Assembly: GCA_947632035.1 (NCBI GenBank)
Contig: CANRNR010000012.1
Coordinates: 1-56,496, forward strand
Length of the DNA: 56,496 nt
Direction of reading: 5' to 3'
Source of the DNA: an uncultured Clostridia bacterium
GTDB taxonomy: Bacteria; Bacillota; Clostridia; TANB77; CAG-508
The notes under the pieces are model-generated. The model was not told where the DNA came from and did not search any database. It worked only from the letters and a program-made list of their open reading frames with translations. Position 1 is the stretch's first letter, and the number at the start of each line of letters is the position of its first letter. This document shows positions 8,281 to 23,330 of the stretch, one piece after another. Position numbers and translations under genes: made by a program.

Positions 8281-9300
8281 TTATAATCCTTCTAATCTTT
8301 TCTTTATTTCCTCTGGTGAAGGTAATAAATTCTTCATTTGTTCTGGCAATGTATCTCTTATTTGATATGTAGATACTCCTATTGGCTTATCACTATCACT
8401 TAATGCATATTCTACTACTGTTCTATTTTTGCTTTTACATATTATAATTCCTATTGACGGATTTTCATGCTCCATCTTTACTTGTTTATCTAATGCAGTT
8501 AAGTAGAATTGAAGTTGTCCAACAAATTCAGGTTTAAATTCTCCTATCTTTAATTCTATAGCAATTAAACTTTTTAAACTTCTATGATATAGAAGTAAAT
8601 CTATATAAAAATCATCTCCACCTACATTTAAATGATATTGACTTCCCATAAAAGCAAAATTTCCACCCATTTCTTCTAGAAACTCTCTCATATTATTTAC
8701 CAAACTTTCTTCTAACTCTCTTTCTGAATGTTGTTCAGACAATTCCATAAAATCGAAAATATACTCATCTTTTACTGCTAATTTTGCTTGATTAACATAT
8801 TTATCAGGTAGTGTTTCATCGAAGTTAGTTTGGTTTAATAGATATTTTTCATAAGTTTTATTCTCAATATTGTTTATTAAAACATCTTTCGTCCAACCAT
8901 ATTTTTTTGTCATTTTTATATAAAATTCTCTCTCAAGTTGATCTTTACATTTCTCCATTATAGTTACATTTTTGCTCCAGCTAATTTCTGCCACTAATGG
9001 TGGCAGAAATTCATTATCTTTATATTCAACATATAAATTTCGCATTCTCCAAAGGTTTCTCGCTGAAAAGCCTTGAACATCTGGAAATTCTTTTTTTAAT
9101 TCTTTTGCTAATAATTCAACAATTGATTTTCCCCATCCTTTTTCTTGTTGTTGAATATATATCTCTTGTCCAATTCCCCAATATAAATTAATTAATGTCT
9201 TATTAACAGCTCTCATTGCTTCATATTGGCTATTTCTAATTTTATTTTTAATTTCTCCTATAAAATTCTTATAATCTTCGTTTATTAGATTGTTTTCCAC
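8281..9300 (-). CDS. YhcG/DUF1016 family PD-(D/E)XK nuclease-like protein
   Basis: 339 residues. The N-terminal DUF1016-type domain (~10-150) has the hallmarks INLYWGIGQEIYIQQ, GWGKSIVELLAKELKKEFPD and GFSARNLWRMRNLY. The C-terminal domain (~200-330) has the PD-(D/E)XK arrangement: DDFYIDLLLYHRSLKSLIAIELKIGEF, with D, then E-x-K, followed by FVGQLQFYLTALD. The family is found near restriction-modification and other defence or mobile loci and is presumed to cut nucleic acid, but biological roles are poorly established. Here there is no methylase or restriction subunit nearby, only a small unknown gene. It is a full-length copy compared with relatives of about 340-360 residues. Confidence 0.9.
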   Translation of the reverse strand: MENNLINEDYKNFIGEIKNKIRNSQYEAMRAVNKTLINLYWGIGQEIYIQQQEKGWGKSIVELLAKELKKEFPDVQGFSARNLWRMRNLYVEYKDNEFLPPLVAEISWSKNVTIMEKCKDQLEREFYIKMTKKYGWTKDVLINNIENKTYEKYLLNQTNFDETLPDKYVNQAKLAVKDEYIFDFMELSEQHSERELEESLVNNMREFLEEMGGNFAFMGSQYHLNVGGDDFYIDLLLYHRSLKSLIAIELKIGEFKPEFVGQLQFYLTALDKQVKMEHENPSIGIIICKSKNRTVVEYALSDSDKPIGVSTYQIRDTLPEQMKNLLPSPEEIKKRLEGL

Positions 9301-9416
9301 TAAACTTCCTCCATTTTAAAATTTGCAATTGAGTGTTGCAAATTTTATACCTTTTTAATTTATATCATACATTTACTATTAATTTAACCATTTCCAAACT
9401 TTTTGCCTTTGTCATA

Positions 9417-9752
9417 TTAATACCAATATGCTAATTTTAAAAATGAATTAATTAACTTTGCTTGTTCTTCCAAATCTTCGCTTTTTTCATCATTAAATCT
9501 TTGAGCTACAATATTTCTAGATTGCAAAGTCCATAAAAAAGCTTTAAATTTTGGAAATCGTTTTATATTATTTTGCATATAATTTAATAAATTACATAAA
9601 CTTTTGTATAAATCACTATTTTTTTGTTTTTCTTTTTCAAATTTTTCAGGATTTGTTATCAATTCAAATGGTTTTGTAATATTTAATCTGTAATTCTCAT
9701 TCTCAAATGTTTTTATAAAATTTTCATAACTTTCACAAAAAATTCTATACAT
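9417..9752 (-). CDS. Hypothetical protein, 111 residues
   Basis: Start MYRIFCESYENFIKTF, preceded by AAGGAGAAGTATA. The product is small, charged and mostly helical, with a conserved-looking PKFKAFLWTLQSRNIVAQRF segment; I do not recognise the family. Immediately upstream on the same strand lies an open stretch of about 30 codons (9745-9840) whose last bases overlap this start. It has no ATG, GTG or TTG, so it is probably the remnant of a preceding gene. The neighbouring YhcG-family gene is on the same strand 116 bases downstream. A function cannot be stated. Confidence 0.65.
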   Translation of the reverse strand: MYRIFCESYENFIKTFENENYRLNITKPFELITNPEKFEKEKQKNSDLYKSLCNLLNYMQNNIKRFPKFKAFLWTLQSRNIVAQRFNDEKSEDLEEQAKLINSFLKLAYWY

Positions 9753-9901
9753 TATACTTCTCCTTAAAAATCTTTAATTTTTCTTCAAACTCTTTTTTCT
9801 TACTTTCAAATAAATCTTCTCTAATTATATTTACCTCTTTCTATCAATTTATCTATATTTTAACCGAAAATATATAAAAACTCAATATTTTATGATTATT
9901 T

Positions 9902-9918
9902 TTCTACTATATGTAGAA
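9902..9918. promoter_or_regulatory. Operator-like palindrome upstream of the 10.0-kb gene
   Basis: TTCTAC-TATAT-GTAGAA is a perfect 6-bp inverted repeat with a 5-base centre, ending 19 bases before the -35 box of the adjacent plus-strand promoter. It has the shape of a regulator-binding site; no regulator is visible nearby. Confidence 0.4.
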
Positions 9919-9937
9919 TAATTTTTAAAGTTTTTTA

Positions 9938-9966
9938 TTGTATAAATTATTTTTTAATAGTACAAT
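9938..9966 (+). promoter_or_regulatory. Probable promoter for the membrane-anchored unknown gene
   Basis: TTGTAT (9938-9943), a 17-base spacer and TACAAT (9961-9966) precede the ATG at 10000 by about 33 bases. AAAGGTGA serves as the ribosome site. Confidence 0.6.
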
Positions 9967-9999
9967 AATATAAATTATAAGAAAAAAGGTGACACAAAT

Positions 10000-10638
10000 A
10001 TGGAAGAAAAAAATAGTATAAAAATAAATTTAATTACAATATTTTTAATTATATCTTTAATGATAAATTTTATAATAGGATTTTTTATTTATAAATTATA
10101 TAATGATAAACAAATAGTCGATAGTAAATTAACAGATTTAAACAATAAAGTAGATAAATTAGAAAATGTAGTAGATAATTTACAATCAACTGAAACATTA
10201 ACTACTAAGGAAGATTATGAGACAATTGATATAAATAATTATATTTTCGAATTAGATAGTAAAGATAAATATATAATTGTAACTGATTCTAAATGGTTAA
10301 CTATGCTAAATGATGGTGGTAGTAATACCAGTATTTATTATCAAATAGACTTAGATAATAATATTATTAGTAAAGTTCAAGAAGATTATAAGGCTAACTT
10401 ATTAGAAGGTACTCCTAGTACAAAAACAAATGTAATTTATATTAAAAAAATAGATACTAATATTCAAAAAGAAGTAAGAGCTTTATTGACTGAAATAATC
10501 TCAAAAGAGGATATTAATGACTCTAATAATTATCATCCATTTACAATTTCAACCTTAAATACTGAAAAAGTAATATATAACAAAAATACTATCGAAAGTA
10601 TCAATGTACTTTTGAAAAAAATGGATGAATTAAAATAA
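10000..10638 (+). CDS. Membrane-anchored protein with coiled coil, unknown function
   Basis: 212 residues. A single hydrophobic segment at residues ~10-33 (LITIFLIISLMINFIIGFFI) is followed by a short coiled coil (~38-62, KLTDLNNKVDKLENVVDNL). A C-terminal globular domain of ~140 residues contains KYIIVTDSKWLTMLNDGGSN. There is no lipobox or clear signal-peptidase site, so an uncleaved anchor with the domain outside is likely. This is the only plus-strand gene between 1 and 11.9 kb and has its own promoter, upstream palindrome and terminator. Family not recognised. Confidence 0.75.
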   Translation: MEEKNSIKINLITIFLIISLMINFIIGFFIYKLYNDKQIVDSKLTDLNNKVDKLENVVDNLQSTETLTTKEDYETIDINNYIFELDSKDKYIIVTDSKWLTMLNDGGSNTSIYYQIDLDNNIISKVQEDYKANLLEGTPSTKTNVIYIKKIDTNIQKEVRALLTEIISKEDINDSNNYHPFTISTLNTEKVIYNKNTIESINVLLKKMDELK

Positions 10639-10645
10639 TAAAACT

Positions 10646-10695
10646 AAAATAAGACGTTTTTATTGACAGACGCCTTATTTTAATTTTATTTTTTT
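10646..10695 (+). terminator. Terminator, probably bidirectional
   Basis: AAAATAAG (10646-10653) pairs with CTTATTTT (10674-10681), extended by an inner CG/CG pair, and is followed by a T-rich run on the plus strand. The A-rich 5' side would also serve the converging methyltransferase gene. Confidence 0.7.
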
Positions 10696-10765
10696 CCTAA
10701 ATTTTCTTTAACTCCTTTACATATTTTTCATTTGTCAAACTCAACATAATTTTTGATGCAACAGT

Positions 10766-11590
10766 TTATATTTTAATAACAGTTACTATTGCATTTTCTA
10801 ATAATTCATTATACTCTTCTTTCGCAACACCTAATATTTCAAATGATTTTAACTGTTCTTTCATCTCAATAAATCTGTGAATCTCTATGTTTTTAAATCC
10901 TATTTTCATCATAAATTCTTTTATATGTTCTATATCACTAAATCTATCTTGCAAATCATTTCTTGAAGTAACTTGATTTAAATTTTTATTAAAATCTGGT
11001 AAGCATACATTTTGCTTTTCTATAAACTTTTTAGGTGTAACATCGCAAGTAATCCATACCCCATTGAATTTCTTTAATACATTATAAATATTCTTTGCAA
11101 CAATTTCCTTTTCTTCAAATGTTAAGTATCTAAGTAAGCCTTCATTTATTATTGCTACTTCTCTATCTTTGTTAAGAAACTCTTCACATTTTTCAAAATC
11201 TTCATAGTTTAATGCATTACCACTTGTTATATGTAAATTATTTGGAATACTAGCAATATCTTTTAGTAATTTAACTTTATTTTTAGCCACTTCCTCTAAA
11301 TCCATTTCAATATACTCATATCCCTTTTCGGCATATATTAAACCCCTTGAAGAATATCCAGCTGCAATTTCAACTACTTGTTTTATATTTAAATCATCAA
11401 GTATTTTATTAGTTAGCTTATACCTTGCTTCTATTTCCGGTGCTAATAATTTATTTAATTTCACATCATTATTTTTACAATTTTTCTGTAACCATTGATA
11501 TATTTCTTTTTCATAAGGTATGTCTGTAAATATTCTTGGATAAGAAGTAACAATTGCTGTTGGACTAATACTTTCAAAATTATCTAACAT
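10766..11590 (-). CDS. LCM-family (leucine carboxyl methyltransferase-like) SAM-dependent methyltransferase
   Basis: 274 residues. The N-terminus SPTAIVTSYPRIFTDIPYEKE and the SAM-binding strand VVEIAAGYSSRGLIYAEKGY, followed by an acidic YIEMDLEEV, match the LCM/PPM-like O-methyltransferase family. AIINEGLLRYLTFEE is the second conserved block. The substrate is unknown; bacterial members act on small acids or natural products. The start has AAAGGAATTAATT before ATG, and this ribosome site overlaps the end of an SDR remnant, so the two were probably once an operon. After the stop the same frame stays open for 22 more codons, perhaps a decayed extension. Confidence 0.8.
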   Translation of the reverse strand: MLDNFESISPTAIVTSYPRIFTDIPYEKEIYQWLQKNCKNNDVKLNKLLAPEIEARYKLTNKILDDLNIKQVVEIAAGYSSRGLIYAEKGYEYIEMDLEEVAKNKVKLLKDIASIPNNLHITSGNALNYEDFEKCEEFLNKDREVAIINEGLLRYLTFEEKEIVAKNIYNVLKKFNGVWITCDVTPKKFIEKQNVCLPDFNKNLNQVTSRNDLQDRFSDIEHIKEFMMKIGFKNIEIHRFIEMKEQLKSFEILGVAKEEYNELLENAIVTVIKI

Positions 11591-11592
11591 AA

Positions 11593-11757
11593 TTAATTCC
11601 TTTCAATTATAATATCTGCAACTGTCAAATTAGTATCATTTGTAACATTATCTATAATTGTTTTAGCTACATCTTCTGGTTTCATAAAAGTAGCTTGTTT
11701 TTCTTCAGATACATAATCTATACTATTTTTATAAAATTCTGTATTTATAATTATATT
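11593..11757 (-). pseudogene. Remnant of a short-chain dehydrogenase/reductase (C-terminus only)
   Basis: An open stretch of about 50 codons ends at TAA (11593-11595) and has no start. Its translation contains NTEFYKNSIDYV, then FMKPEDVAKTIIDNV and the final LTVADIIIERN. This is the usual SDR C-terminal pattern (x-N-T-E-F, KPEDVA, T-V-x-D-I-I-I). Upstream it runs into a stop at 11758-11760 and no Rossmann portion remains. The break lies a little before the promoter of the nucleotidyltransferase/SerRS island, so arrival of that island may have truncated it. Confidence 0.75.
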
Positions 11758-11910
11758 TCATAGTTTGATTCTATAATTATAATTTAACATAAGCTTTTAG
11801 TTTTTGCAAGCAATATATAAATCTTATTTTTACACAATCTTCTAGATATTATTTAACTTTTATAGCTAATTTATATTTTTTATATCTCTGGATTTAATTT
11901 CCTAAAATAA

Positions 11911-11939
11911 TTGACTTTATTGGTATTTTATGGTATTAT
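11911..11939 (+). promoter_or_regulatory. Strong promoter of the nucleotidyltransferase/SerRS island
   Basis: TTGACT (11911-11916), exactly 17 bases, then TATTAT (11934-11939). Transcription is expected to begin near 11946. Confidence 0.75.
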
Positions 11940-11941
11940 GT

Positions 11942-11969
11942 AAATATGATGTTTTATAATATCATATTT
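11942..11969 (+). promoter_or_regulatory. Inverted repeat over the predicted transcription start
   Basis: AAATATGAT (11942-11950) and ATCATATTT (11961-11969) form a 9-bp inverted repeat directly followed by further T residues. Because it overlaps the predicted start point it may be an operator. If transcription starts earlier it would act as an attenuator-like terminator. A second short hairpin, CCCT...AGGG, follows at about 11976-11990. Confidence 0.45.
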
Positions 11970-12011
11970 TTTATTCCCTGCTGTTGTAGGGGAACATGGG
12001 GTGCACATTGA
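11946..12011 (+). CDS. Possible 21-codon leader peptide (tentative)
   Basis: A frame opening ATG ATG at the predicted transcription start encodes a 21-residue peptide with a hydrophobic front (MMFYNIIFFIP), three consecutive Cys codons and a WGAH end, stopping 26 bases before the nucleotidyltransferase start. There is no Shine-Dalgarno sequence, so it would have to be translated as a leaderless message. Leader peptides are common before resistance genes, but this could be a chance ORF. Confidence 0.25.
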   Translation: MMFYNIIFFIPCCCRGTWGAH

Positions 12012-12037
12012 AAACTTAATAGAAAGGTGGTTATTTT

Positions 12038-12985
12038 ATGACTGTCCAACAAAAACAAATTCGTAACTGGTTAGATGACTTAGTAAAGGCTTTTTCTACA
12101 AGCTCTATAAGTCAAATGAGTTGTTTTCGGCAATTTATCGTAACTGGTAGCTATGCTGACTGGCTCAAAAATCCTGATGGTGTTTCTTGTCCAAGTTGGA
12201 ACGCATTACCTGACATTAATCTTTATGTTTTGGTATCCGGCTCGGAAGAAGAACAAATCGAGGCTGAATATGAACTTGGGCTTTTGTATCAGTCTATGAT
12301 GCGAGAACACAAAGAAGTTAATCTTCTTTTGGATTTACATCCTTTTTCTCGCTCTGTCGGTACAATTGTTCCTGACTGTTTGAATCTTCAGCTGACATCC
12401 AGAATTATCAATATGAAAGATACAAGTAAGTATCCTGACTATTGTTGGTATGGATGGAAGTCCAACTACTTTGTTCTCTACATTAATGGAGAGGATGAAT
12501 TAGAAAAACTTGAAGTTTCTTCTCCTAAAAGGGACTTGGCTTGGCTGAAACACATGCACATGGCTTTTGCTTCTTATAGCAATGTAATGCATATGGTAGC
12601 TTTATCTTCTATTTCGGCAGATTCATTGGAAATTTTTGATGAGGCTTATCGCTATTGCAAAGAAGTCATGAAAGACGGTATCAGTCTTGGGATTCCGATC
12701 TCTACTGATGAGAACTTCAACTATTCCATCATCAAAAAATGGAAAGACAAATGTGACAAATTTTATGGGGAATATTATGGTCCTCATGAAAAATCCATCG
12801 TGGAACGAATTTTGGCAATTGAAAAAGATTATTTCAGTTACCGAAACGAAACCTGCGCAAGACAGCTTTTGAGTGATTTCTTTACATTGAAGAACTATGT
12901 TTATAGCAAGGGATTTATGTCAAGAATATCTGAAGTTCAAAAGTTGCAAAACGATTCACTTGTGTCACTTCCGTTGTGGTACTAA
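12038..12985 (+). CDS. Nucleotidyltransferase-like protein paired with a SerRS
   Basis: 315 residues. FIVTGSYADWL followed by LPDINLYVLV and, further on, VNLLLDLHPF resembles the nucleotidyltransferase core (G-S, D-x-[D/E/N], third Asp). Here the second acidic position is Asn and the spacing between G-S and D-x-N is longer than usual, so activity is uncertain. The rest is helical and ends SLVSLPLWY. The ribosome site is GAAAGGTGG before the ATG. Codon use and base composition are clearly less AT-rich than in flanking genes, a sign of transfer. It ends 19 bases before the SerRS start, so the two are cotranscribed. A role in resistance or modification of an aminoacyl or nucleotide antibiotic is inference. 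Confidence 0.6.
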   Translation: MTVQQKQIRNWLDDLVKAFSTSSISQMSCFRQFIVTGSYADWLKNPDGVSCPSWNALPDINLYVLVSGSEEEQIEAEYELGLLYQSMMREHKEVNLLLDLHPFSRSVGTIVPDCLNLQLTSRIINMKDTSKYPDYCWYGWKSNYFVLYINGEDELEKLEVSSPKRDLAWLKHMHMAFASYSNVMHMVALSSISADSLEIFDEAYRYCKEVMKDGISLGIPISTDENFNYSIIKKWKDKCDKFYGEYYGPHEKSIVERILAIEKDYFSYRNETCARQLLSDFFTLKNYVYSKGFMSRISEVQKLQNDSLVSLPLWY

Positions 12986-13004
12986 AAGAGAAAGGATGAT
13001 AATA

Positions 13005-14270
13005 ATGATTGATATTAAACAAATTCAGAGTGATCCTATCGGTATGTCCAAAAAAATGGCTGATAAAGGAGTTACAATTGATTTTACAGAACTCCTTGAA
13101 AAAAATGCAGAGAAAAATCGGCTGATAGCTGAAATTGATGCTCTGCGTAACCGTCGAAAGACACTCAGCAAAAAAATTGGTATTGCTATCAAAAATGGCA
13201 ATCCAGTAGATGCGATGCAGGATGAAGTAAGTGAAGTAAATGCAAAAATTAAAGAGAATGAACTTCTCATCGAAGAAGTTGCAAATTACATTCAGACAGT
13301 TTTGCTTGAACTTCCTAATCCCCCTGCAGATGGTGTTGTAGCTGGTGGCAAAGAAAACAATCAGGTGGTCAAAGTCTATGGTGAAAAACCTATTTTTGAC
13401 TTCACACCTAAAAACCATGTAGATTTGGCAGAATCTCTTGATCTTATTGATTACAAGAGAGGCGTCAAGTTAAGTGGCTCTGGCTACTGGTGTTATACAA
13501 GAGTTGGTGCTATGCTTGAATGGGCATTGCTCAACTACTTTATTGAAAACCATATCGCAGATGGTTATGAAATGCTCTTCTTGCCCCACATTCTGAATCA
13601 GGAATGTGGTCTGGTAGCAGGACAATTTCCAAAGTTCTTTGATGAAGTCTATTATTTGGACAACACCAGAGATAAGTTTATTCTGCCTACTGCTGAAACT
13701 GCATTGGTAAATCTTCATCGTGATGAAATTCTCTCCGAGAATGATTTACCCAGAAGATACTTTGCATTTACTCCTTGCTATCGTAAAGAAGCAGGAAGTA
13801 GCAGAGCAGAAGAAAGAGGAATGATTAGAGGACATCAATTCAACAAGGTAGAACTTGTTCAATATGCTCATCCTGATCATTCTATGGAATCTTTGGAAGA
13901 AATGCTGAATAAGGCAGAAAAACTGGTTTCCGGATTAGGTCTGCACTATCGTGTTTCTAAACTCGCTGCACAAGACTGTAGTTGGGCTATGGCAACAACA
14001 TTTGATGTCGAAGTCTGGATTCCTAGCATGGGTATTTACAAAGAAGTAAGTTCTGTATCCAATGCTTTCGATTACCAGGCAAGACGTGGAAATGTTCGTT
14101 TCAGAGATGACGTGACAGGAAAAACTCGTTTTGTCCACACTCTCAATGCTTCTGGTCTTGCAACTAGCCGTATCTTCCCTGCAATTTTGGAACAGTTCCA
14201 GCAGGAAGATGGAAGCGTAAAAGTTCCCGATGTATTGAAAAAGTGGTTACCTATCAACTATATCAAATAA
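13005..14270 (+). CDS. serS: Seryl-tRNA synthetase, probable additional (resistance-type) copy
   Basis: 421 residues, class II synthetase charging tRNA-Ser. The N-terminal coiled-coil arm covers ~30-100. Motif 2 is FTPCYRKEAGSSRAEERGMI with RGHQFNKVE. The serine-site TAET precedes it (LPTAETALVN), and motif 3 is LNASGLATSRIFPAILEQFQ. The usual motif 3 reads LNGSGLAVGR, so the active-site rim differs. The start ATG at 13005 follows AAAGG by nine bases; the longer frame from 12897 is rejected because it overlaps the upstream gene and lacks a ribosome site. It belongs to a two-gene island with its own promoter and terminator and atypical composition. A housekeeping copy probably exists elsewhere. 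Insensitive SerRS copies are known to protect against SerRS inhibitors such as albomycin; that role here is inferred. Confidence 0.9.
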   Translation: MIDIKQIQSDPIGMSKKMADKGVTIDFTELLEKNAEKNRLIAEIDALRNRRKTLSKKIGIAIKNGNPVDAMQDEVSEVNAKIKENELLIEEVANYIQTVLLELPNPPADGVVAGGKENNQVVKVYGEKPIFDFTPKNHVDLAESLDLIDYKRGVKLSGSGYWCYTRVGAMLEWALLNYFIENHIADGYEMLFLPHILNQECGLVAGQFPKFFDEVYYLDNTRDKFILPTAETALVNLHRDEILSENDLPRRYFAFTPCYRKEAGSSRAEERGMIRGHQFNKVELVQYAHPDHSMESLEEMLNKAEKLVSGLGLHYRVSKLAAQDCSWAMATTFDVEVWIPSMGIYKEVSSVSNAFDYQARRGNVRFRDDVTGKTRFVHTLNASGLATSRIFPAILEQFQQEDGSVKVPDVLKKWLPINYIK

Positions 14271-14287
14271 TTGTGTACCCTTAATAA

Positions 14288-14336
14288 AGGAAAGGTGGTA
14301 GAGATAATTCTCTGCCACCTTTCCTATTTTTGTTTT
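14288..14336 (+). terminator. Strong rho-independent terminator of the SerRS island
   Basis: AGGAAAGGTGG (14288-14298) pairs with CCACCTTTCCT (14315-14325), with AGAGA/TCTCT pairs inside, followed by ATTTTTGTTTT. Its 3' arm overlaps the stop codon of the converging M20 peptidase gene. Confidence 0.92.
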
Positions 14337-15451
14337 AAAAATTTATATATTACTTTTTCATATTTTTCTAATTGTTCAATTTCTATAAATTCATTAGGCA
14401 AATGTGCTTGTTTTAGACTTCCAGGTCCAAACACACATGATTTTATTTTTAATATATTATAAATAAATCCTGCATCAGAAGAAGCACAAAATATACTTTC
14501 ATCTTCTTTTGAAAATTCCAACAAATTATTTAATAAATTAGATTCACACCAAAAACTATCAATTCCTCCACTTTCAAATAAGTCAGTAGTTATTTTACAA
14601 CCATTTTTTAGATTTTTATTAAATCGTTCTGTAATATCTTTTATTTCTTTTACATAATCTGCAAAATTATCTTTTGGCATTACTCTAGTTCCCCAATATA
14701 AAGTACACTCTGTTGGAATTGTTCCACTACTTGTACCATTTTCATATCTTCCTATATTAATGAATGGTTGTGAATCATTTTTATTTTCTCTTTTCAATAT
14801 TATCCATTCTTTCAATTTTTCTATATAATTTTGTGCAATTTCAAAAGGATTAATTTTTCCCTCTGGTAATCCAGTATGCCCTCCTATTCCTACTATATGG
14901 CTCTTAAAAAACATATTTCCCATTTGCTTTTTACATACTCTACATTCTGTAGGCTCCATAACAATTGCTATATCTCCATTGAGTAATTTATTTTCGCAAA
15001 TTGGAATAGTTCCATATAAACTAGTATTTTCCTCATCACATACCAAATTTATAATAATTGTTCCTTTACCTGAATTTTCTTCTATGACTTTGAATATTGC
15101 CGATAATGCTCCTGCTATTCCACCTTTCATATCACAAGCACCTAATCCATATATTTTACCATCATTTATAGTCGCCTCAAATGGATTTGTTTTCCATACA
15201 TTTACTTTTTCTCCATTTTCTGATGGCATTGTATCCATATGTCCATTAAAAATAATTGTAGGTCCTTCTACATCAAATTTATATGTTGCTACAATATTAG
15301 GTCTATCTTTTGAATATTCATATGTTTTTACATCAAAATTATATTTATATAGCAGATTAATTAAATAATCTGCTATATTTTTTTCCTTATTGATATCAAT
15401 TTGACTTGGTATAGATATTAAATCTTTTAGTATATCAATCGCTAAACTCAT
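14324..15451 (-). CDS. M20 family metallopeptidase (ArgE/DapE-like)
   Basis: 375 residues. Zinc-site motifs are in order: FNGHMDTMPSE, YGLGACDMKGGIAGAL, VCDEENTSLYG, AIVMEPTECRV and the C-terminal GPGSLKQAHLPNEFIE. The dimerisation segment GGHTGLPEGKINPFE is present. Such enzymes hydrolyse N-acyl or peptide bonds of small amino-acid derivatives in the cytoplasm. The start at 15451 is set by GGAGGAG seven bases upstream; the longer frame to 15553 would run deep into the ferredoxin gene. It overlaps that gene by 17 bases and is the last gene of the seven-gene operon, suggesting a deacylation or product-release step. Confidence 0.9.
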   Translation of the reverse strand: MSLAIDILKDLISIPSQIDINKEKNIADYLINLLYKYNFDVKTYEYSKDRPNIVATYKFDVEGPTIIFNGHMDTMPSENGEKVNVWKTNPFEATINDGKIYGLGACDMKGGIAGALSAIFKVIEENSGKGTIIINLVCDEENTSLYGTIPICENKLLNGDIAIVMEPTECRVCKKQMGNMFFKSHIVGIGGHTGLPEGKINPFEIAQNYIEKLKEWIILKRENKNDSQPFINIGRYENGTSSGTIPTECTLYWGTRVMPKDNFADYVKEIKDITERFNKNLKNGCKITTDLFESGGIDSFWCESNLLNNLLEFSKEDESIFCASSDAGFIYNILKIKSCVFGPGSLKQAHLPNEFIEIEQLEKYEKVIYKFLKQK

Positions 15452-15719
15452 TAAAAATCTCCTCCAAATTTTCTTTTTTAAAACCTTCTCTGAAATTAAT
15501 TTTAGCTGGACAAACGTCTTCACAAGGAAAATCACAGTCTTTACATTTATCAAAATCAGATAAATCTATTTTTTTCTTATTTTCATAAGCATATTTGATA
15601 TTTCTTATCTTTCCTCTTGGAGATTTTGTTTCTTTTTGAGCCTCTTGATACTGTGGGCAACCTTTAACACAAGATCCACAGTTTAAGCATTTTAGCAACT
15701 CATTAATATTCATATTCAT
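15435..15719 (-). CDS. Two-[4Fe-4S] ferredoxin-like subunit (GlcF N-terminal type)
   Basis: 94 residues with two cluster motifs, CLNCGSCVKGCP near residue 10 and CKDCDFPCEDVCP near residue 65. This matches the N-terminal iron-sulfur domain of glycolate oxidase subunit GlcF, but the two CCG (heterodisulfide-reductase-like) domains that follow in GlcF are absent. The start at 15719 lies six bases after AGGAG; an ATG at 15725 is too close. The gene overlaps the end of the GlcDE-type flavoprotein gene by 17 bases, so the two products very likely form a complex that passes electrons from the flavin. Confidence 0.85.
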   Translation of the reverse strand: MNMNINELLKCLNCGSCVKGCPQYQEAQKETKSPRGKIRNIKYAYENKKKIDLSDFDKCKDCDFPCEDVCPAKINFREGFKKENLEEIFNEFSD

Positions 15720-17766
15720 ATACATCTCCTTTTTGATAATCAAATATATAAGCATTTGTCAATTCATTAAATTTATCAATTGTACACTTTTTCTTTGATA
15801 TAATATTTAATTCAGTAAATAGACTAATATCTTCAAGAAGTTCTATATTCCTTATTTTTCTTTCTTCAAGTTCTTCTTTATTATATATTGAAGAAAAAAT
15901 TATAGATTTTTGTCCTTTTTTATCATTAATAATTAATGGTGTAAAATCGTAAGATACTGAATTTATAATTAATAATACATCTTCTTCAATTGATGTAATT
16001 GGCATCTTATAATATTTATTATCGTTATTATTAAATACTCTTAATGCTATTTTCTCTATATTTTTATTCAAAACTTCATTTGATCTACATATATTATATC
16101 CTGATACATTTTTTACTAATTTATCACCATATATTATTTCTCTGCCATTATCATTAAATTTTATACCTAATATTGAATCTTTTAACTCTCCATGTCTTTT
16201 TGATAATAAATTTTTATAATTTGCTCTAATAACATCAATTATCTGCTTTCCATTTACTTTGTTTAAAGTTAAATAACCTATGTTTAGATTTTGCTCATTA
16301 CAAGATTTTATAAGTTCTTCTATTTTCACATCAGCATCAACTACAACATTCATATTTATTTTATCTATGACTATTTTGTCAGTAGTATCAAATTTATGGT
16401 TTACTAAATCATTGTGCGGTACTTCTTTAGGTAAAACTTTTCCTGGATTTATCATATTTTTTTCATCAAATTTATTTTTTAGTCTATAAAATTCATTTAT
16501 CTCATCATTAGTATGCTTTTTGATAATATAATCTATTTTTTCCAAACCAATTCCATGTTCTGCTGCCAATGAGCCGTTATTCTTCAGACATTTTTCCATC
16601 ATTAAACCTAACACTCTATGTTTTTCTTTATCTCCTTGTTTATTATTTTCAAAGAAAAATGTTGGATGTACATTTCCATCACTAAAGTGAAATGTATCTA
16701 ACATAGGAATATTATTTTGTTCTGCTATATCAAATATATCCTCAACTAAATTTTGAAGTGAAGTTCTTGGAACAACACCATCAACTAATAAAGAAATAGG
16801 TTTCTTTTCAATTTCATCTTTAAGCAATTGTCTATTAGTTTGATATGCTTTTCCTCTAACTTCATAAATACTTCCCACTGGTGTTGTTATTTCTACTGGT
16901 AGATTTTTACTATATTCATTTAATTTATCAAAAAACATTTTCTTATCTCTTTCAGAATATGAAAAATATTCTAACAATAAATAATACCTTCCAACTCTTC
17001 CTTTTGTTGTGTGATATGATGGTGTTATCATTTCCATCGCTGAAAATGGAATTCCTGACTTAAAACAATTACTTAATAATTCATTTATTATCTTAGATGT
17101 GTCAAAAGTCATACAAAATAGCAATGTTTCTGTTGGTTTTTTTACTAATCTTACCTTAATCCAACCAACTGCTCCTAATGTTCCTTCACTACCTATTATT
17201 GTATAGAAATAATCTGAAATTCCTTCTTGTTTTTCTTTTTTTATAATATGTTCTTTTCCATCAGCTGTAAAAAATTGAAATTCTTCAATAAAACAATGTA
17301 AAGGTCCAAATCTTAAACATCTTGGTCCAGAACTATTTTCGGAAATCGCTCCACCCAAACTGCAATGGTCTTTGGAAATTGGATCTGGTGGAAAAAATAG
17401 ATTGTATCTTTCTCCAAATTCGTTAACTTCTGATATTGTTGTTCCAGGTGCAAAAACTGCTGTTTCTGCAACCTCATCAAAATTTATTATTCCTTTCCAA
17501 TTTTCATTTGATATAACAACACAGTTTTCTTGTGGTACACAACCACCTGTATATCCAGTTGCTTTTCCTCTTACTAAAAATTTAAAATTGTTTTCTCCAC
17601 ATATGCTAACTGCATTTTTGAAATCTTGTTCATTATATACAAGAATAACAACACTTGGTAATCCCTCTAATAAACTAGCATCTGATCCATAAGCAACTAA
17701 ATCTTCTTCTTGATCTAATATTTTTTTATTATCTATTTTTTTATTAAATATACTTCTATAATCCAT
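15703..17766 (-). CDS. GlcD-GlcE fusion: FAD-linked 2-hydroxyacid dehydrogenase
   Basis: 687 residues. Residues ~35-210 are the PCMH-type FAD-binding domain (VRGKATGYTGGCVPQ, PPDPISKDHCSLGGAISENSSGPR, IIGSEGTLGAVGWI). Residues ~220-455 are the FAD-oxidase C-terminal domain, with HFSDGNVHPTFFF and GSLAAEHGIGLEK, ending INPGKVLP. Residues ~470-600 resemble the GlcE subunit (IIYGDKLVKNVSGYNICR, compare GlcE R-x-G-G-x-V-x-K-N-V-x-G-Y-D). Enzymes of this group oxidise glycolate, D-lactate or related 2-hydroxyacids to 2-oxoacids. Ribosome site AAGGAGG precedes the ATG. The electron-accepting partner is the overlapping ferredoxin gene. The next upstream gene is an aminotransferase that could use the 2-oxoacid. 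Substrate unknown. Confidence 0.85.
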   Translation of the reverse strand: MDYRSIFNKKIDNKKILDQEEDLVAYGSDASLLEGLPSVVILVYNEQDFKNAVSICGENNFKFLVRGKATGYTGGCVPQENCVVISNENWKGIINFDEVAETAVFAPGTTISEVNEFGERYNLFFPPDPISKDHCSLGGAISENSSGPRCLRFGPLHCFIEEFQFFTADGKEHIIKKEKQEGISDYFYTIIGSEGTLGAVGWIKVRLVKKPTETLLFCMTFDTSKIINELLSNCFKSGIPFSAMEMITPSYHTTKGRVGRYYLLLEYFSYSERDKKMFFDKLNEYSKNLPVEITTPVGSIYEVRGKAYQTNRQLLKDEIEKKPISLLVDGVVPRTSLQNLVEDIFDIAEQNNIPMLDTFHFSDGNVHPTFFFENNKQGDKEKHRVLGLMMEKCLKNNGSLAAEHGIGLEKIDYIIKKHTNDEINEFYRLKNKFDEKNMINPGKVLPKEVPHNDLVNHKFDTTDKIVIDKINMNVVVDADVKIEELIKSCNEQNLNIGYLTLNKVNGKQIIDVIRANYKNLLSKRHGELKDSILGIKFNDNGREIIYGDKLVKNVSGYNICRSNEVLNKNIEKIALRVFNNNDNKYYKMPITSIEEDVLLIINSVSYDFTPLIINDKKGQKSIIFSSIYNKEELEERKIRNIELLEDISLFTELNIISKKKCTIDKFNELTNAYIFDYQKGDVYEYEY

Positions 17767-17794
17767 ATATTCCTCCTTATAAGATTTAGATTAT

Positions 17795-18928
17795 TTAATT
17801 TCCAAATATTTCTTCTACTTTCTCCAATGCCTTATCTTTATCATTTGAATATCCTAAATCTTTTAAAGTATTGCTCAATGCCTCTATTGTTCTTAATATA
17901 TCTTCTTTTCTTGTATAAAATCCCATTGTTCCAATCCTATCTTCCGCTATACAAACACCATATTTATCTTTCATTATTGTTGTAACCCTGTCGCCGTCAA
18001 TTCCTAATTTTTCTCTATCTTCATCAATTGCTTTTTGTAATTCTTCTGGGAAAACAATTCTAGTAGTAGATGGAGATACAATTTCTTCGTCAGCCATATA
18101 ATTTAATCCTAAAATCTTTATAGCTTCTCTAACTGCTTTTGATGCAATATAATGTTGTTTATATATCTCATCTAATCCATCTTTTAGTAAGCTATCAAAT
18201 AAATCGTTTAATCCCCTAGCAAATAAATATTCTGGATTATTATCTAGAGCCATACTAAAGTAAAACTTTTTATTTTGTTTTATTTTATTCATTCTATCGA
18301 TAGCCTTTTGACTGTAGCATACTAATGGACATCCTTGTGGTGCATTTAAACACTTTTGACTTCCAGTTACATATACATCAATTCCCCATTCATCAAATTT
18401 CACTTCTGTTCCACCAAATGCAGATATACCGTCAACGAATAATAATATATCACTTGATACTTCATCAATTATTTCACGAACTCTTTGTGGATTATATAAT
18501 GCACCTGTTTGTGTTTCATTTTGCACCATAGTTACAATATCATAATGATTTTTTGTTAATTCTTCTTTTAACTGTTCAAAATTAATTTGTTTTCCTTTTT
18601 GTCCTTCCATAAATTGCACTTCTGCACCCATATTTTTAGATAATGTTCCTCCAAAGTGTCCCCATTGTCCATTGTCAATTGTTAATACTTTTGTGTTTTC
18701 ATCTATTATGTTATATAATCCTGTCTCTAGTCCTACTCTTCCTATTCCTAATTTTAAATATACTGGCATTTTTGTACCTATTATTTTTTGTGCTTTTTCT
18801 AACATTGAATTTTGTATTTGTTTGTATTCTTTAAAATAAGTTGGAACAGGTATGCTATCATTTATTGTTCCTTTTATTACTGGATGAATTTCAGTTTGTC
18901 CAACTGTCATATTTAAAATATCATTCAT
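17795..18928 (-). CDS. Class V aminotransferase (alanine-glyoxylate/serine-pyruvate type)
   Basis: 377 residues. Pyridoxal-phosphate fold type I with HNGQWG-like DNGQWGHFG, QNETQTGALYNP, VDGISAFGGTEVKFDEWGID and the lysine-bearing GSQKCLNAPQG. The C-terminal domain carries DRIGTMGFYTRKEDILRTIEAL. Relatives transfer the amino group of alanine or serine to glyoxylate or similar 2-oxoacids. The start at 18928 has AAGGAG at seven bases; the longer frame to 18994 reads into the preceding gene. Placement beside the GlcDE flavoprotein suggests the pair turns a 2-hydroxyacid into an amino acid through the 2-oxoacid, which is an inference from context. Confidence 0.88.
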   Translation of the reverse strand: MNDILNMTVGQTEIHPVIKGTINDSIPVPTYFKEYKQIQNSMLEKAQKIIGTKMPVYLKLGIGRVGLETGLYNIIDENTKVLTIDNGQWGHFGGTLSKNMGAEVQFMEGQKGKQINFEQLKEELTKNHYDIVTMVQNETQTGALYNPQRVREIIDEVSSDILLFVDGISAFGGTEVKFDEWGIDVYVTGSQKCLNAPQGCPLVCYSQKAIDRMNKIKQNKKFYFSMALDNNPEYLFARGLNDLFDSLLKDGLDEIYKQHYIASKAVREAIKILGLNYMADEEIVSPSTTRIVFPEELQKAIDEDREKLGIDGDRVTTIMKDKYGVCIAEDRIGTMGFYTRKEDILRTIEALSNTLKDLGYSNDKDKALEKVEEIFGN

Positions 18929-18941
18929 TATAATTCTCCTT

Positions 18942-19982
18942 TTATAATATAATTTTTTCTTTTTTATTGATTGAGTCTTCAATTGCATTTGCAACTTTTA
19001 TAATTTCTACAACTTCTGATAAAGGTAATATTGGTGACTCTATTTTTTCTAATGCACATTGTACATAATGTTCTAATTCGTTTTTTAAAGCTCCTTTTAC
19101 CTTTCCATTAATTTTTGGCCAGAAAAATAATTCTGGATAATCTACTGTATCATTTGACCAATTATGTATAACTGGCTCATTTTTTATCACAAATACATCT
19201 TTATTAGTGATAATTTTTGAACTAAATTCAAAACCATAAGGACATTTTTGTGCTATGTGCCAACTATTTTGTAATGTTGCTAATGATCCATTCTCTAATT
19301 CTAATACTGCTACAATATTATCTGGATAAGTTCTATTTAAGAAACTATTTGCAAATGCACTTACTGATTTAACTTTATTTTTTGAAAGCCATAATGTTAA
19401 ATCAATATCATGTGCTAGACAACTATATGCAGGATGAACTCTTCCATATACTAAATGAGATTTGCTTTGAAAATTTCTTTCCATAGTAATGTGTCTTATT
19501 TCATCTTTTGTTGTATTTTGTAACATTTCTTCTAATGCTCTATATCTATCATCAAATCTTAGCACTTGCCCAACATATACATGTACTCCCTTTTTATTAG
19601 CTTCCATTTCTATTTTTTGAGCATCCTTATAATTTACTGTCATTGGTTTTTCTATAATTAAATCACAACCATATTCTATTCCCTTTAATGCAACATCAAT
19701 ATGAACATCTTCTGGAACTACTATATCTAGTAAATCAGGCTTTAATTCCTTTAACATTTTCTCAACATCTGTATATATCTTTATATTTCCTGATAATGAA
19801 TCTTTGTCTTGTGAAACATCTTTATGAAATTCATCTTGTAAACTTTTTTGTTTTGAACTAAATGAATTTTCATTTGTATCACATACTCCTATGACTTCTA
19901 CATTTTTCATATCTTTATATACAGAATAGTGCATCTTTCCAAACCAACCAAATCCTACAATACAAATTTTTAATTTTTCCAT
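18942..19982 (-). CDS. Gfo/Idh/MocA family NAD(P)-dependent oxidoreductase
   Basis: 346 residues. The N-terminal Rossmann domain starts with KICIVGFGWFGKMHYSVYK and VIGVCD. The family motif EKP appears as DLIIEKPMTVNYKDA, and the C-terminal domain carries the conserved SCLAHDIDLTLWL. Members oxidise or reduce sugars, inositols, trans-dihydrodiols and related compounds. Segment ~45-70 (KSLQDEFHKDVSQDKDSL) is an unusual charged insertion. Ribosome site AAAGGAAG precedes the ATG. It ends 13 bases before the aminotransferase start, so the genes are cotranscribed. Substrate unknown. Confidence 0.9.
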   Translation of the reverse strand: MEKLKICIVGFGWFGKMHYSVYKDMKNVEVIGVCDTNENSFSSKQKSLQDEFHKDVSQDKDSLSGNIKIYTDVEKMLKELKPDLLDIVVPEDVHIDVALKGIEYGCDLIIEKPMTVNYKDAQKIEMEANKKGVHVYVGQVLRFDDRYRALEEMLQNTTKDEIRHITMERNFQSKSHLVYGRVHPAYSCLAHDIDLTLWLSKNKVKSVSAFANSFLNRTYPDNIVAVLELENGSLATLQNSWHIAQKCPYGFEFSSKIITNKDVFVIKNEPVIHNWSNDTVDYPELFFWPKINGKVKGALKNELEHYVQCALEKIESPILPLSEVVEIIKVANAIEDSINKKEKIIL

Positions 19983-20007
19983 TTCTTATCTTCCTTTCAT
20001 ATTTATT

Positions 20008-21165
20008 TTAGAAAAAATAATCTATTGAACTTAAATCATTTACTATTTCTTCTGTTTTATTATAATTACTATCTAAAATAACATTTTTTTGTCCATCAAT
20101 TCTACAACAAGCCTCGCAACCTTTACAGTAATCATCTTTTAAATTATGATATAACATTTGTCCTAAATAAATATTTTCCAAATTATTACAAGTTAATATA
20201 TTCTCTATCGTTTTAGAATTATTACATGCTCTCATAACACAAGGAAATATATCTCCATTTGCTCTAACTAATGCTCTAATTAGTGATAGCCAACATTTTT
20301 CAAATTTTGGTTCTTTATTGTTTACTACAAATAATTCTTTTTCATCTATATTGGCATGATTTAATACAAACTTCCTGAATTCTAAATCTTTATCTTCAAA
20401 AATTAATTTTCTTTCTTTTTCAACGCTTTCTTTCCACCAATCTTTATTGTCTGGCACCATCAATTGTCCTGTACTCAAATAACTTTCAGAAGGACAATTA
20501 CAACTACTTACCATACAAGTTGGTCTAAATTGTATATTTAATTTTTCGGATCCTTTTCCTTTATATTTCAAATAAATATCCTTATATATCGTTTTCAAGA
20601 AATCATATACTTCGTCTATATTAAATCTACTATAAACAAATCCTGCACCAACATATTTTATTGGTCCTTGTATTAATTGTTCTAGTGTTTCCATAGACTT
20701 TTTTAAACTTCCATCTTTTATTTTTTTGAAAGTTGCTTCATTGTTTGTATCCAAAGATACTCTTATCCATTCTATTTCTTTCTGCCAATCACCTTCTGGC
20801 ATATATTGTCCATTCGAAGTAACTCCTATTTTTGCATTTGGAAACATTTCTCTTAATTTATGTATAACATCCTTAAATTTATATTTACCATCATTATAAT
20901 AAACTGGCTCTCCTCCACCAGATATAACTATTGCTCTTGGATCAAATACTTTTAATTTTTCCATTTTATCAAAAGGATATACCGCTGATTTATCTCTATG
21001 ATATGTACAATATAGGCAACTTAAAGGGCAACAGTCATAAGGGTGGAACTCTAACAATCCTACTTTTATTTTATTATTTGTAATAGATGATAATTTATTT
21101 TTTATAATATCTATATGGTTCAATACTCTCTCATGTTTTCTCAAATTTTCTACATCTTTAGACAT
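20008..21165 (-). CDS. Radical SAM protein with C-terminal auxiliary-cluster cysteines (SPASM/twitch-like)
   Basis: 385 residues. The radical SAM motif is C46-x3-C50-x2-C53 (CCPLSCLYC), followed by AIVISGGGEPVYYNDGKY and IGVTSNGQYMP. A central FRPTCMVSSCNCPSES adds cysteines at an unusual place. The C-terminus has C291-x12-G-x4-C309, then C314, C326 and a C347-x2-C350-x2-C353-C354 group. This is close to the SPASM pattern that holds auxiliary [4Fe-4S] clusters in peptide- or protein-modifying enzymes. Start at 21165 with GGAGG seven bases upstream. It lies 14 bases after the MBL-fold gene. No PqqD-like peptide-recognition domain is seen in this protein or in a neighbour. The substrate could be the 25-residue product encoded just upstream or a small molecule. 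Confidence 0.85.
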   Translation of the reverse strand: MSKDVENLRKHERVLNHIDIIKNKLSSITNNKIKVGLLEFHPYDCCPLSCLYCTYHRDKSAVYPFDKMEKLKVFDPRAIVISGGGEPVYYNDGKYKFKDVIHKLREMFPNAKIGVTSNGQYMPEGDWQKEIEWIRVSLDTNNEATFKKIKDGSLKKSMETLEQLIQGPIKYVGAGFVYSRFNIDEVYDFLKTIYKDIYLKYKGKGSEKLNIQFRPTCMVSSCNCPSESYLSTGQLMVPDNKDWWKESVEKERKLIFEDKDLEFRKFVLNHANIDEKELFVVNNKEPKFEKCWLSLIRALVRANGDIFPCVMRACNNSKTIENILTCNNLENIYLGQMLYHNLKDDYCKGCEACCRIDGQKNVILDSNYNKTEEIVNDLSSIDYFF

Positions 21166-21179
21166 TATTCTACCTCCAT

Positions 21180-22016
21180 TTATAACTTAATTATATGTCC
21201 ATCTTTTGCAAATTCTATATTATAATCTTTGTAATATTTTTTTGCTTCCATATTTAATTGTTCAATTGTCAATTGAAAAGCCTCTTCTATATGTGTTATA
21301 ACGACTTTTTTAGCATTCATCTTTTCAGAATCCTTCAACATTTTCTCAAAACTATCTTCTGTATCGGAATAATTAACTCCACTACCAATTTTTTTATTTT
21401 CAAAGTATAAGCAATGTGCAATAAATACATCTATCCCTTTTAATTCATCATAAACTATTAAATCTTGATATTCACATGGTGCATATACTATTTTTTTGCC
21501 ACTTTTATTATCCTCTACTAAAAAATAGTACCCTTCAGTTTTCGGAATAAAATATGGTGTTACTGTTACATTTTCAAACTCAATAGCTTGTTTATGGTTT
21601 AAATATATTATTTTTATTACTCCTTTACTTTCATAATAAGATAACATATTTCCACAACCGAATTTTTTAAACATTTCTAATTGTTTTTCTGCAATATATA
21701 AATTTATAGGATTTGGCTCCGCTTTCTCTTTTATATGATTAAAATTTATCTGTTCAACAACTCTAATTCCTTGAGTATGATCTGGATGCCAATGTGTCAA
21801 AATTATGTTTTCTACTTTTTCTATTCTTTCTCTATTTAATTGAAGCCTAACTTCTTCAGGTGTGTCAAACAATATATTATCATCATACACAAACATTGAT
21901 GGTCCAGTTTGATATTCACTTATTCCTTTCTCTCTTGCTTTGACACACAACTCACAATTGCAACATGGTTTAGGTATTGGAGTTACTCCACCTGTTCCTA
22001 ATAAATTTAAATTCAT
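21180..22016 (-). CDS. MBL-fold metallohydrolase with CxCxxC site (PhnP/PqqB-like)
   Basis: 278 residues. The metal-binding motif is TH75WH77PD79H80TQG, and a second zinc-type site near the N-terminus is C19-x-C21-x2-C24 ([10 protein letters not shown]). This pair is shared with PhnP (cyclic ribose phosphate diesterase) and PqqB. Further landmarks are [21 protein letters not shown] and [10 protein letters not shown]. Whether it cleaves a phosphodiester or acts in cofactor-like peptide maturation cannot be told from sequence. AAGGAGG before the ATG lies inside the end of the metK remnant. It is the first intact large gene of the seven-gene operon. Confidence 0.85.
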
Positions 22017-22023
22017 ATTTTCC

Positions 22024-22551
22024 TCCTTACAATCTTATTATCTTTTCCCAACTTAAATCTTCCATCTAATCCTGTATAACCTAAAGGTCCACCTATAATA
22101 AATCTTTCTGTTGGATTAATATATATTTTTGTATCCCTATCAATGTATTCATGTGGTATAACTTTTTTACTACTTTATCTATTATATTATTTCTCATTTT
22201 TTCAACATTTGTATCTTTTTCATATTGATTAGATATCAAAATAGTTTCTATCCTTTTTGGTATATCTTTTTCATATTCTACAGTCACTTGTGTTTTTCCA
22301 TCAGGTCTTAAGTATTCTAATCCTTTTGTTTTTCTAACTTCCGATAATTTTTTTGACAATCTATGTGCCATACTTATTGCAAAAAGCATATAATTATCTG
22401 TTTCATTGGTAGCAAATGTTTCAATTGCAACTCTTGAGTTTGAATTCTGTGTTAAATATTCATCTAATAAAGTGTCCGATATATAATCGCATAGTTTATC
22501 TGGATGTTCTTCGGTTACACTTTCTGAAGTAAAATAATAGTTTTTTTGTAT
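22024..22551 (-). pseudogene. metK: Decayed S-adenosylmethionine synthetase (metK) copy
   Basis: The frame begins after AAAGGAGAAAA at an ATA where ATG is expected (22549-22551), then reads QKNYYFTSESVTEEHPDKLC, the normal MetK N-terminus. After VAIETFAT it jumps directly to NETDNYMLFAISMAHRLSKK, which in MetK lies far downstream, so the middle including the ATP-binding part is deleted. It continues through LRPDGKTQVTVEYEKD. In a run of six A (about 22163-22168) one base is missing, and the next block, [20 protein letters not shown] then [15 protein letters not shown], is in another frame. The 3' end is lost just before the MBL-fold gene. It cannot make an active enzyme. Confidence 0.9.
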
Positions 22552-22574
22552 TTTTCTCCTTTCTTTCTATTCTA

Positions 22575-22611
22575 TATAAAAAAAGAACAAAGTATATCAT
22601 TACTCTGTTCT
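22575..22611 (-). terminator. Terminator or attenuator hairpin after the 25-codon ORF
   Basis: On the minus strand AGAACAGAG (22603-22611) pairs with CTTTGTTCT (22584-22592), with one G-U pair, followed by seven T. The 5' arm is formed by the final sense codons of the 25-codon ORF, so translation of that ORF would interfere with folding. It separates the ORF from the metK remnant and the operon. Confidence 0.75.
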
Positions 22612-22677
22612 AAAAGGCACAAAGGAAGTATTGAACAATATTACTATTTCTAATTTTTTTAGTACTCCTTGTTTCAT
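22600..22677 (-). CDS. 25-residue small ORF at the head of the radical SAM operon
   Basis: ATG at 22677 with AGGAGGGG upstream at good spacing, and a promoter 31 bases before the start. The peptide begins MKQGVLKKLE, has a hydrophobic middle and ends FNTSFVPFRTE; it contains no Cys or Tyr. Its last codons form the 5' arm of the following hairpin. It could be a leader peptide for attenuation or a very short precursor substrate, in the size range of PqqA or MftA but without their motifs. The strong ribosome site and promoter make real translation likely. The function is unknown. Confidence 0.55.
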   Translation of the reverse strand: MKQGVLKKLEIVILFNTSFVPFRTE

Positions 22678-22707
22678 TACTTCCCCTCCTAGTACAATAA
22701 TATTTAA

Positions 22708-22736
22708 ATTATACCATTTTAAAACTAACTTGTAAA
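22708..22736 (-). promoter_or_regulatory. Promoter before the 25-codon ORF and operon
   Basis: On the minus strand TTTACA (22731-22736), 17 bases, then a perfect TATAAT (22708-22713). The predicted transcript starts about 24 bases before the small ORF. Confidence 0.8.
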
Positions 22737-22792
22737 GATATTTCTAGAGTAATTTTACATTTTTTGTCATAACTACAAATATAGGCTTTCAT

Positions 22793-23101
22793 TTAATAAA
22801 ACCCTATATCTATAAAAATAATTTCTCTAAATACAATCTTTTCCGCTTCATTTTTAAAATCGTTCATAATACACACCCAATAAAGCATATCCGTATTTTT
22901 CATATCTTCTGTTAGATTCTTTTTTTGATTTTTATTGTTTTATTATTTGTTCTACTCTTTCAGTTGCATTTTCTTGAATTTCTTTTAAATGACTATTTAA
23001 TGTTTCATCCATTAACATTATTGAATATTCTGCTTTTTTATTTTCTTCTGGAATATCCTCAATTTTTTTATTTTTAAATTCAACTTCTTCGAAATATTTT
23101 T
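22793..23101 (-). pseudogene. Remnant of a TnpV-type transposon protein
   Basis: Two frame pieces are visible. The first contains YSIMLMDETLNSHLKEIQEN and then ATERVEQIIKQ before a stop. The second, one base out of frame, reads KKNLTEDMKNTDMLYWVCIM, then NDFKNEAEKIVFREIIFI. Together they match the second half of TnpV (pattern L-x-G-x-L-N-x-H-L-x-x-I, then W-V-x-x-M-N-x-I-x-x-x-A-x-E-I-V-x-x-E). The start is lost and a stop and frameshift break the frame. TnpV genes are carried on transposons and conjugative elements in Clostridia, so this marks an old insertion next to the radical SAM locus. Nothing else was seen between 22740 and 23130. Confidence 0.7.
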
Positions 23102-23133
23102 ATAAATTTAAGAAATTTTTGTTTATTTGATAG

Positions 23134-23171
23134 CAAAAAAGAAGATAATTCTTTAAATCAAACTATCTTCT
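23134..23171 (-). terminator. Terminator after tRNA-Gln
   Basis: On the minus strand AGAAGATA (23164-23171) pairs with TATCTTCT (23140-23147), followed by TTTTTTGC. It ends the tRNA transcript about 75 bases after the tRNA. Confidence 0.8.
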
Positions 23172-23247
23172 CTCTCTTTATGATTTTTATCGAATATTAA
23201 AACTCTTTTATATCAAGACTTTTAAGTGATTCGACAAAAATCGTCCA

Positions 23248-23323
23248 TGGCTGGGGTACTAGGATTCGAACCTAGGAAATGCCTGAGTCAGAGTCAGGTG
23301 CCTTACCGCTTGGCTATACCCCA
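23248..23323 (-). tRNA. tRNA-Gln (anticodon CTG)
   Basis: Minus strand. The acceptor arm TGGGGTA pairs with TACCCCA, the discriminator is G and CCA is encoded. The D arm is GCCAAGCGGTAAGGC. The anticodon arm CCTGA-CTCTGAC-TCAGG gives anticodon CTG, and the T arm is CTAGGTTCGAATCCTAG. Length is 76 with CCA. In such an AT-rich genome a TTG-anticodon isoacceptor would be expected elsewhere. Confidence 0.95.
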
Positions 23324-23330
23324 ATATTTT

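Follow-up and report, generated by a model that had tools for sequence, protein, structure and literature searches.

A seven-gene radical SAM operon of no recognised pathway on a putative acquired island in an uncultured Clostridia bacterium

Gene content of the operon and its leader

The window analysed here, a stretch of 56,496 nucleotides (nt) from an uncultured Clostridia bacterium (assembly GCA_947632035.1, contig CANRNR010000012.1), carries on its minus strand, from 22016 to 14324, a seven-gene operon whose frames all end in a stop codon and contain no internal stops. For all seven products, Pfam and NCBIfam agree with the families named in an initial annotation made from the sequence alone: a metallo-β-lactamase (MBL)-fold protein, a radical S-adenosylmethionine (SAM) enzyme, a Gfo/Idh/MocA oxidoreductase, a class V aminotransferase, a GlcD-like FAD enzyme, a ferredoxin with two 4Fe-4S sites and an M20 metallohydrolase of the ArgE/DapE-like type. 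The intergenic gaps measure 14 nt (MBL to radical SAM), 25 nt (radical SAM to Gfo), 13 nt (Gfo to aminotransferase) and 28 nt (aminotransferase to flavoprotein). The ferredoxin gene overlaps the flavoprotein gene by 17 nt from the start at 15719, which was picked by its ribosome-binding site, or by 53 nt from the ATG at 15755, and it overlaps the M20 gene by 17 nt. A purine-rich Shine-Dalgarno-like stretch lies 5-9 nt 5' of all seven genes (AGGAGG, GGAGG, AAGGAAG, AAGGAG, AGGAGG, AAGGAG and GGAGGAG). The spacing bears out the earlier description of one compact unit. The G+C content of the genes is 0.26-0.29, and that at third codon positions (GC3) is 0.11-0.16 in six of them and 0.21-0.24 in the short ferredoxin gene, compared with 0.11-0.18 in 13 other single-copy-looking genes sampled in the window, two of them inside the island described below.

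Table 1. Positions of the features discussed (window coordinates)
Feature	Position	Strand	Remarks
Promoter-like site	22708..22736	-	TTTACA-17-TATAAT, TG before -10 (extended -10), 11/12 matches
25-codon open reading frame (ORF)	22600..22677	-	after AGGAGGGG; may encode a leader or, with lower probability, a precursor peptide
Terminator-like hairpin	22584..22611	-	11 pairs then T run; overlaps 3' end of 25-codon ORF
Broken metK (SAM synthetase)	~22058..22545	-	three pieces; profile and protein matches
MBL-fold protein	21180..22016	-	278 amino acids (aa); fold like PhnP/PqqB; lacks third His and bridging Asp
Radical SAM enzyme	20008..21165	-	385 aa; SPASM/twitch-like Cys 291-354; no N-terminal domain the size of a RiPP recognition element (RRE)
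Gfo/Idh/MocA oxidoreductase	18942..19982	-	346 aa
Class V aminotransferase	17795..18928	-	377 aa; AGXT/PucG/BhcA type
GlcD-like FAD 2-hydroxyacid dehydrogenase	15703..17766	-	687 aa; extra C-terminal part, GlcE-like by eye
Two-cluster 4Fe-4S ferredoxin	15435..15719	-	94 aa (106 aa from ATG 15755); resembles start of GlcF
M20 ArgE/DapE-like metallohydrolase	14324..15451	-	375 aa
Terminator-like hairpin	14288..14325	+	17 pairs; separates convergent operon and serS
Putative acquired island	8154..23247		~15 kb; absent from closest relative found (G075); right edge at 3' end of tRNA-Gln
tRNA-Gln	23248..23323	-	anticodon ctg; island edge
tnpV transposon gene relic	22935..23090	-	adjoins tRNA; Pfam PF14198, 33.1 bits (cut-off 27) over positions 35-72 of a 111-position profile

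The initial annotation had the operon headed by a 25-codon ORF. This ORF does exist behind a promoter-like site, the best of 54 (a class of site that is rarer than in shuffled sequences, with 68.1), but a terminator-like hairpin and a broken metK separate it from the MBL gene. The RNA around it (22700-22555) folds 4.1 standard deviations better than shuffled sequences, and six terminator-like sites occur compared to 1.7 in shuffles. From their sequence, the ORF, the folded RNA and the hairpin look like an attenuator leader. In a search for a riboswitch, no Rfam family matched the leader at E<=5, and in a comparison with the genome's own metK and other loci no shared leader was found, the best E being only 0.038.

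The pieces of metK correspond to model positions 2-43, 122-211 and 205-241, so that the middle and the C-terminus are gone; the last piece lies in another frame, and no ATG was seen by eye at the expected start. They are 62, 72 and 76% identical to an intact metK on another contig of the genome. Because the broken gene sits between the leader and the first enzyme, the ancestral unit probably comprised eight genes, with that for SAM synthetase first.

The short ORF also bears on a pathway resembling pyrroloquinoline quinone (PQQ) biosynthesis, in which the 25-residue peptide would be a precursor that is crosslinked by the radical SAM enzyme, transformed by the PqqB-like MBL protein and trimmed by a peptidase. 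We consider this quite unlikely. The peptide contains no Tyr, Trp or Cys, nor the Glu-x3-Tyr that we take to be the PqqA motif, metK intervenes between the ORF and the enzymes, and an attenuator accounts more simply for the ORF, hairpin and terminator. Moreover, M20 enzymes presumably cut small amides rather than leader peptides.

The radical SAM and MBL proteins

The radical SAM protein scores 36.9 bits with Pfam PF04055 (cut-off 29.5) and carries the CxxxCxxC cysteines at 46, 50 and 53 and a GGGEP motif at 83-87. The SPASM-like cysteines reported in the initial annotation are found in its C-terminal part, at 291, 309, 314, 326, 347, 350, 353 and 354. The top fold matches of the predicted structure are of the SPASM/twitch type and include the small-molecule enzyme BlsE as well as the peptide enzymes SkfB and SuiB, so the protein looks SPASM/twitch-like at the level of the model, in which most of the C-terminus has a pLDDT below 50. 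No SPASM Pfam model was matched, and a viral fold library returned general radical SAM matches only. The model begins opposite SuiB residue 81/82, and hence lacks an N-terminal domain of the size of SuiB residues 1-80, which we take to be the RRE. In the eight proteins scanned at the operon, to which the search was confined, Pfam matched no PqqD/RRE-like domain either, in line with the earlier statement that such a domain is missing. The RRE or PqqD-like domain, fused or adjacent, by which a maturase of ribosomally synthesised and post-translationally modified peptides (RiPPs) would be recognised was thus not found at the operon, although not every RiPP maturase carries one; its absence also speaks against a PQQ-like pathway.

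The MBL protein retains HxHxDH and an N-terminal CxCxxC. Its third His is replaced by Lys159 (His in 28/29 homologues) and its bridging Asp by Pro180 (Asp in 29/29). The homologue ORFs were selected by HxHxDH, which is present in 29/29 by construction, whereas neither the third His nor the Asp was a criterion; the set includes remoter MBL proteins (L122, L135-L140) and one that is cut short (L119), and alignment A3 used 20 of the 29. Two other His residues, at 94 and 141, fall outside the ligand column of the alignment. Since two conserved ligands are lost, leaving the PhnP-family dinuclear metal site incomplete, the label of CxCxxC hydrolase given to the protein at first is doubtful.

The initial annotation also stated that PhnP and PqqB share the MBL site. 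This needs correcting: the one PqqB aligned likewise lacks the third His and the bridging Asp, but the PhnP-type homologues keep both ligands. The HxHxDH of that PqqB is altered, unlike that of the window protein, which therefore shares two of three site changes and scores 20.8 bits with the PqqB model TIGR02108 against a cut-off of 245. Both the intact motif and the low score count further against a PQQ-like pathway. With the NCBIfam PhnP model the score is 48.2 bits (cut-off 272). The sole MBL match in the plasmid collection, in a Proteus record, was considered as a relative with partners and appears by eye to be an ordinary PhnP-like gene.

The surrounding island and the recurrence of the operon

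The closest relative found, a member of the genus whose enolase is the most similar (100%), lacks the stretch that contains the operon. Where the window has 8154-23247, this genome carries ~276 nt of other sequence, and the flanks match it at 96.2% (7728-8153) and 94.4% identity (23248-25919). The match restarts at the 3' end of tRNA-Gln, next to which several other relatives also differ in content. That the closest relative lacks the stretch and that a tRNA gene marks its end indicates, from sequence context, a horizontally acquired island. A second stretch missing from the same relative, at 6093-7727, contains an ORF at 6544-7623.

On the opposite strand, the island encodes a second, divergent seryl-tRNA synthetase (SerRS; 13005-14270), which shares 29% identity with the other SerRS of the genome and at best ~40% with plasmid-collection records. 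Directly 5' of it is an orphan 315-aa ORF (12038-12985, plus strand), nucleotidyltransferase-like by eye only, with no match in Pfam, NCBIfam, PHROG, PDB, the plasmid collection or 244 other genomes of the class. Given their GC3 of 0.31 (serS) and 0.35 (ORF), compared to 0.11-0.24 in the operon, and their strand, these two genes probably arrived separately from it. For the same reasons a role of the second SerRS in self-resistance of the pathway is unsupported; in the four plasmid records examined, the neighbours of serS are ordinary chromosomal genes. The island further contains, on the minus strand, an LCM-type methyltransferase gene (10766-11760), preceded by what appears by eye to be the tail of a short-chain dehydrogenase and is perhaps another relic, and, at its left end, a YhcG/DUF1016 PDDEXK nuclease (8281-9300). 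The initial annotation had missed the island, the metK and TnpV relics and the second SerRS.

Recurrence of the gene set had been proposed as a check, and the samples and scans searched yielded no homologue to judge it by. At 1e-10, whole-genome searches with the radical SAM protein found no orthologue in 286 other genomes of the order; at 1e-8 there was none in 390 others of the class, and a single match in 397 others of the phylum (G747, 31% identity over residues 45-193), with none of the partner genes in the 3.4 kb around it; these samples overlap, so that the counts are not additive. At E<=0.01, matches occur in 44/327 other phylum genomes. Of the 29 loci, 27 yielded an ORF (none for L098 and L109), and the 23 in alignment A1 (without L096, L097, L103 and L105; a further alignment, A2, used 16/27) are 18-25% identical to the window protein and MoaA-like or general radical SAM by eye, and were rejected as orthologues. 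Among 84,980 species genomes, eight stretches match one of six 8-residue peptides of the protein, none of them a relative, and the fixed-spacing motif HP-C-C-YC-29-GGGEP retrieved no relative; both scans are indirect and would miss relatives of moderate identity. Searches of plasmids and phages by tblastn and of viral contigs found no relative, and six viral contigs picked up with a relaxed motif were discarded, none being similar to any of the seven proteins at 1e-3. PADLOC matches are at the superfamily level only (best E 1.2e-7), and the operon was rejected as a defence system. The family libraries searched (Pfam, NCBIfam and PADLOC) hold no recognised pathway for this gene set, and the titles and opening abstract lines of those open-licence papers that literature searches listed contain no description of one, consistent with the initial annotation.

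Partner enzymes, possible functions and likeness to known systems

The aminotransferase meets PF00266 with 63.5 bits (cut-off 21.5) and is of the AGXT/PucG/BhcA type; the best 15 of its 226 plasmid-collection matches are 25-30% identical, and none of the 29 other genomes of the genus contains it at E<=1e-20. The M20 protein scores 100.2 bits with PF01546 (cut-off 24.6) and, with the ArgE/DapE subfamily TIGR01910, 212.4 bits, just below the cut-off of 217.6. The flavoprotein passes the cut-offs of PF01565 and PF02913, while its 226.5 bits with the GlcD equivalog TIGR00387 fall short of 567.9. Its GlcE half is short, and the weak GlcE score falls on the GlcD half. Matches in 12 of 122 other class genomes are confined to the GlcD part (25-28% identity, in frames of 471-494 aa), and the best PDB relative is LctD of the ferredoxin-dependent lactate dehydrogenase (7qh2, 1e-31). 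By eye, what we take to be the catalytic motifs of the M20, aminotransferase, Gfo and GlcD proteins look kept.

In the initial annotation, the locus was inferred to produce or salvage an unusual amino acid or a small molecule derived from a peptide, which the M20 enzyme would release. We favour, with middling confidence, a horizontally acquired, orphan operon for small-molecule biosynthesis. The SPASM/twitch-like enzyme would perform the key C-H abstraction on a small substrate, whether to oxidise it, to decarboxylate it or to form a bond, using SAM that metK may once have supplied before the genome's own copy made it dispensable. The flavoprotein and ferredoxin could convert a 2-hydroxy acid into a 2-oxo acid and pass the electrons to Fe-S proteins, the transaminase could turn the oxo acid into an amino acid or act in reverse, and the Gfo/Idh/MocA protein would catalyse a redox reaction with NAD(P). 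The PqqB-like MBL protein may be a metal or binding protein of non-canonical type and not a phosphodiesterase, and the M20 enzyme may finally remove an acyl or amino-acid mask.

The GlcD-like, ferredoxin, AGXT-type and ArgE/DapE-like families are, as is generally known, common in degradation, and LctD is the best structural relative of the flavoprotein. They would suit a salvage or catabolic operon, in which the M20 enzyme cleaves an imported amide or N-acyl compound to free an amino acid, the flavoprotein, ferredoxin and transaminase interconvert hydroxy, oxo and amino acids, and the Gfo and radical SAM proteins open an unusual carbon skeleton. This is possible, with a lower probability than biosynthesis: none of the seven proteins matches a transporter in Pfam or NCBIfam, and metK and a SPASM-like enzyme are, from general knowledge, unusual in catabolic operons. 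It is because of these two genes that we prefer biosynthesis, and the preference is not decisive. The relics of metK and tnpV that the island also carries, the two lost MBL ligands and the shortness of the GlcE- and GlcF-like parts would instead fit a decaying island without present function. Decay is about as improbable as a PQQ-like route, in view of seven consecutive intact frames with RBS-like (ribosome-binding) sites and host-like codon-position G+C, and of the radical SAM motifs, which are kept, as those of the other enzymes seem to be.

A bolder and rather unlikely reading is an undescribed pathway in which the SPASM-like enzyme and the PqqB-like, half-dismantled MBL protein cooperate towards a new cofactor or signalling molecule, either by a logic analogous to that of PQQ, in which the 25-residue peptide would be an expendable precursor, or in a BlsE-like manner on a small substrate of the sugar or nucleoside type. 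If the host is an anaerobe, such a pathway would be an oxygen-independent version. If biosynthesis is correct, a small set of genes carried on an island would encode new radical chemistry, and the collections searched contain nothing closely related to it; a SPASM-like enzyme beside a PqqB-like protein outside PQQ biosynthesis could show how MBL proteins lose their hydrolytic site and gain other roles. The modest size of the locus would allow it to be expressed directly in a heterologous host and the metabolites to be compared.

Among known systems, BlsE (7vob), the radical SAM cytosylglucuronate decarboxylase of blasticidin S biosynthesis, is a fold match of the radical SAM protein, with 12% identity over the alignment; it is fourth in Foldseek's own order, and no blasticidin-type partner is matched among the seven proteins. 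SkfB, SuiB and anSME are SPASM/twitch-type enzymes and act on peptides or proteins, and SuiB has the N-terminal domain that the window protein lacks. The best NCBIfam match of the MBL protein, nearly over its full length, is the GPMC-system MBL protein (NF038231; 58.7 bits, cut-off 360). From the PhnP family (6b9v, 3g1p) it differs in having Lys159 and Pro180 in place of the third His and bridging Asp. With the glycolate oxidase GlcDEF and with LctD, the operon shares the GlcD part and a GlcF-like ferredoxin, and it differs in its single 687-aa chain and in a ferredoxin without the rest of GlcF. The likeness to PQQ biosynthesis lies in a SPASM-like radical SAM enzyme beside an MBL protein with an N-terminal CxCxxC, the latter missing two ligands, third His and bridging Asp, like the PqqB aligned. 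The operon differs in having no matches to PqqC, PqqD or PqqF and no recognisable PqqA, and in possessing an additional transaminase, Gfo protein and flavoprotein.

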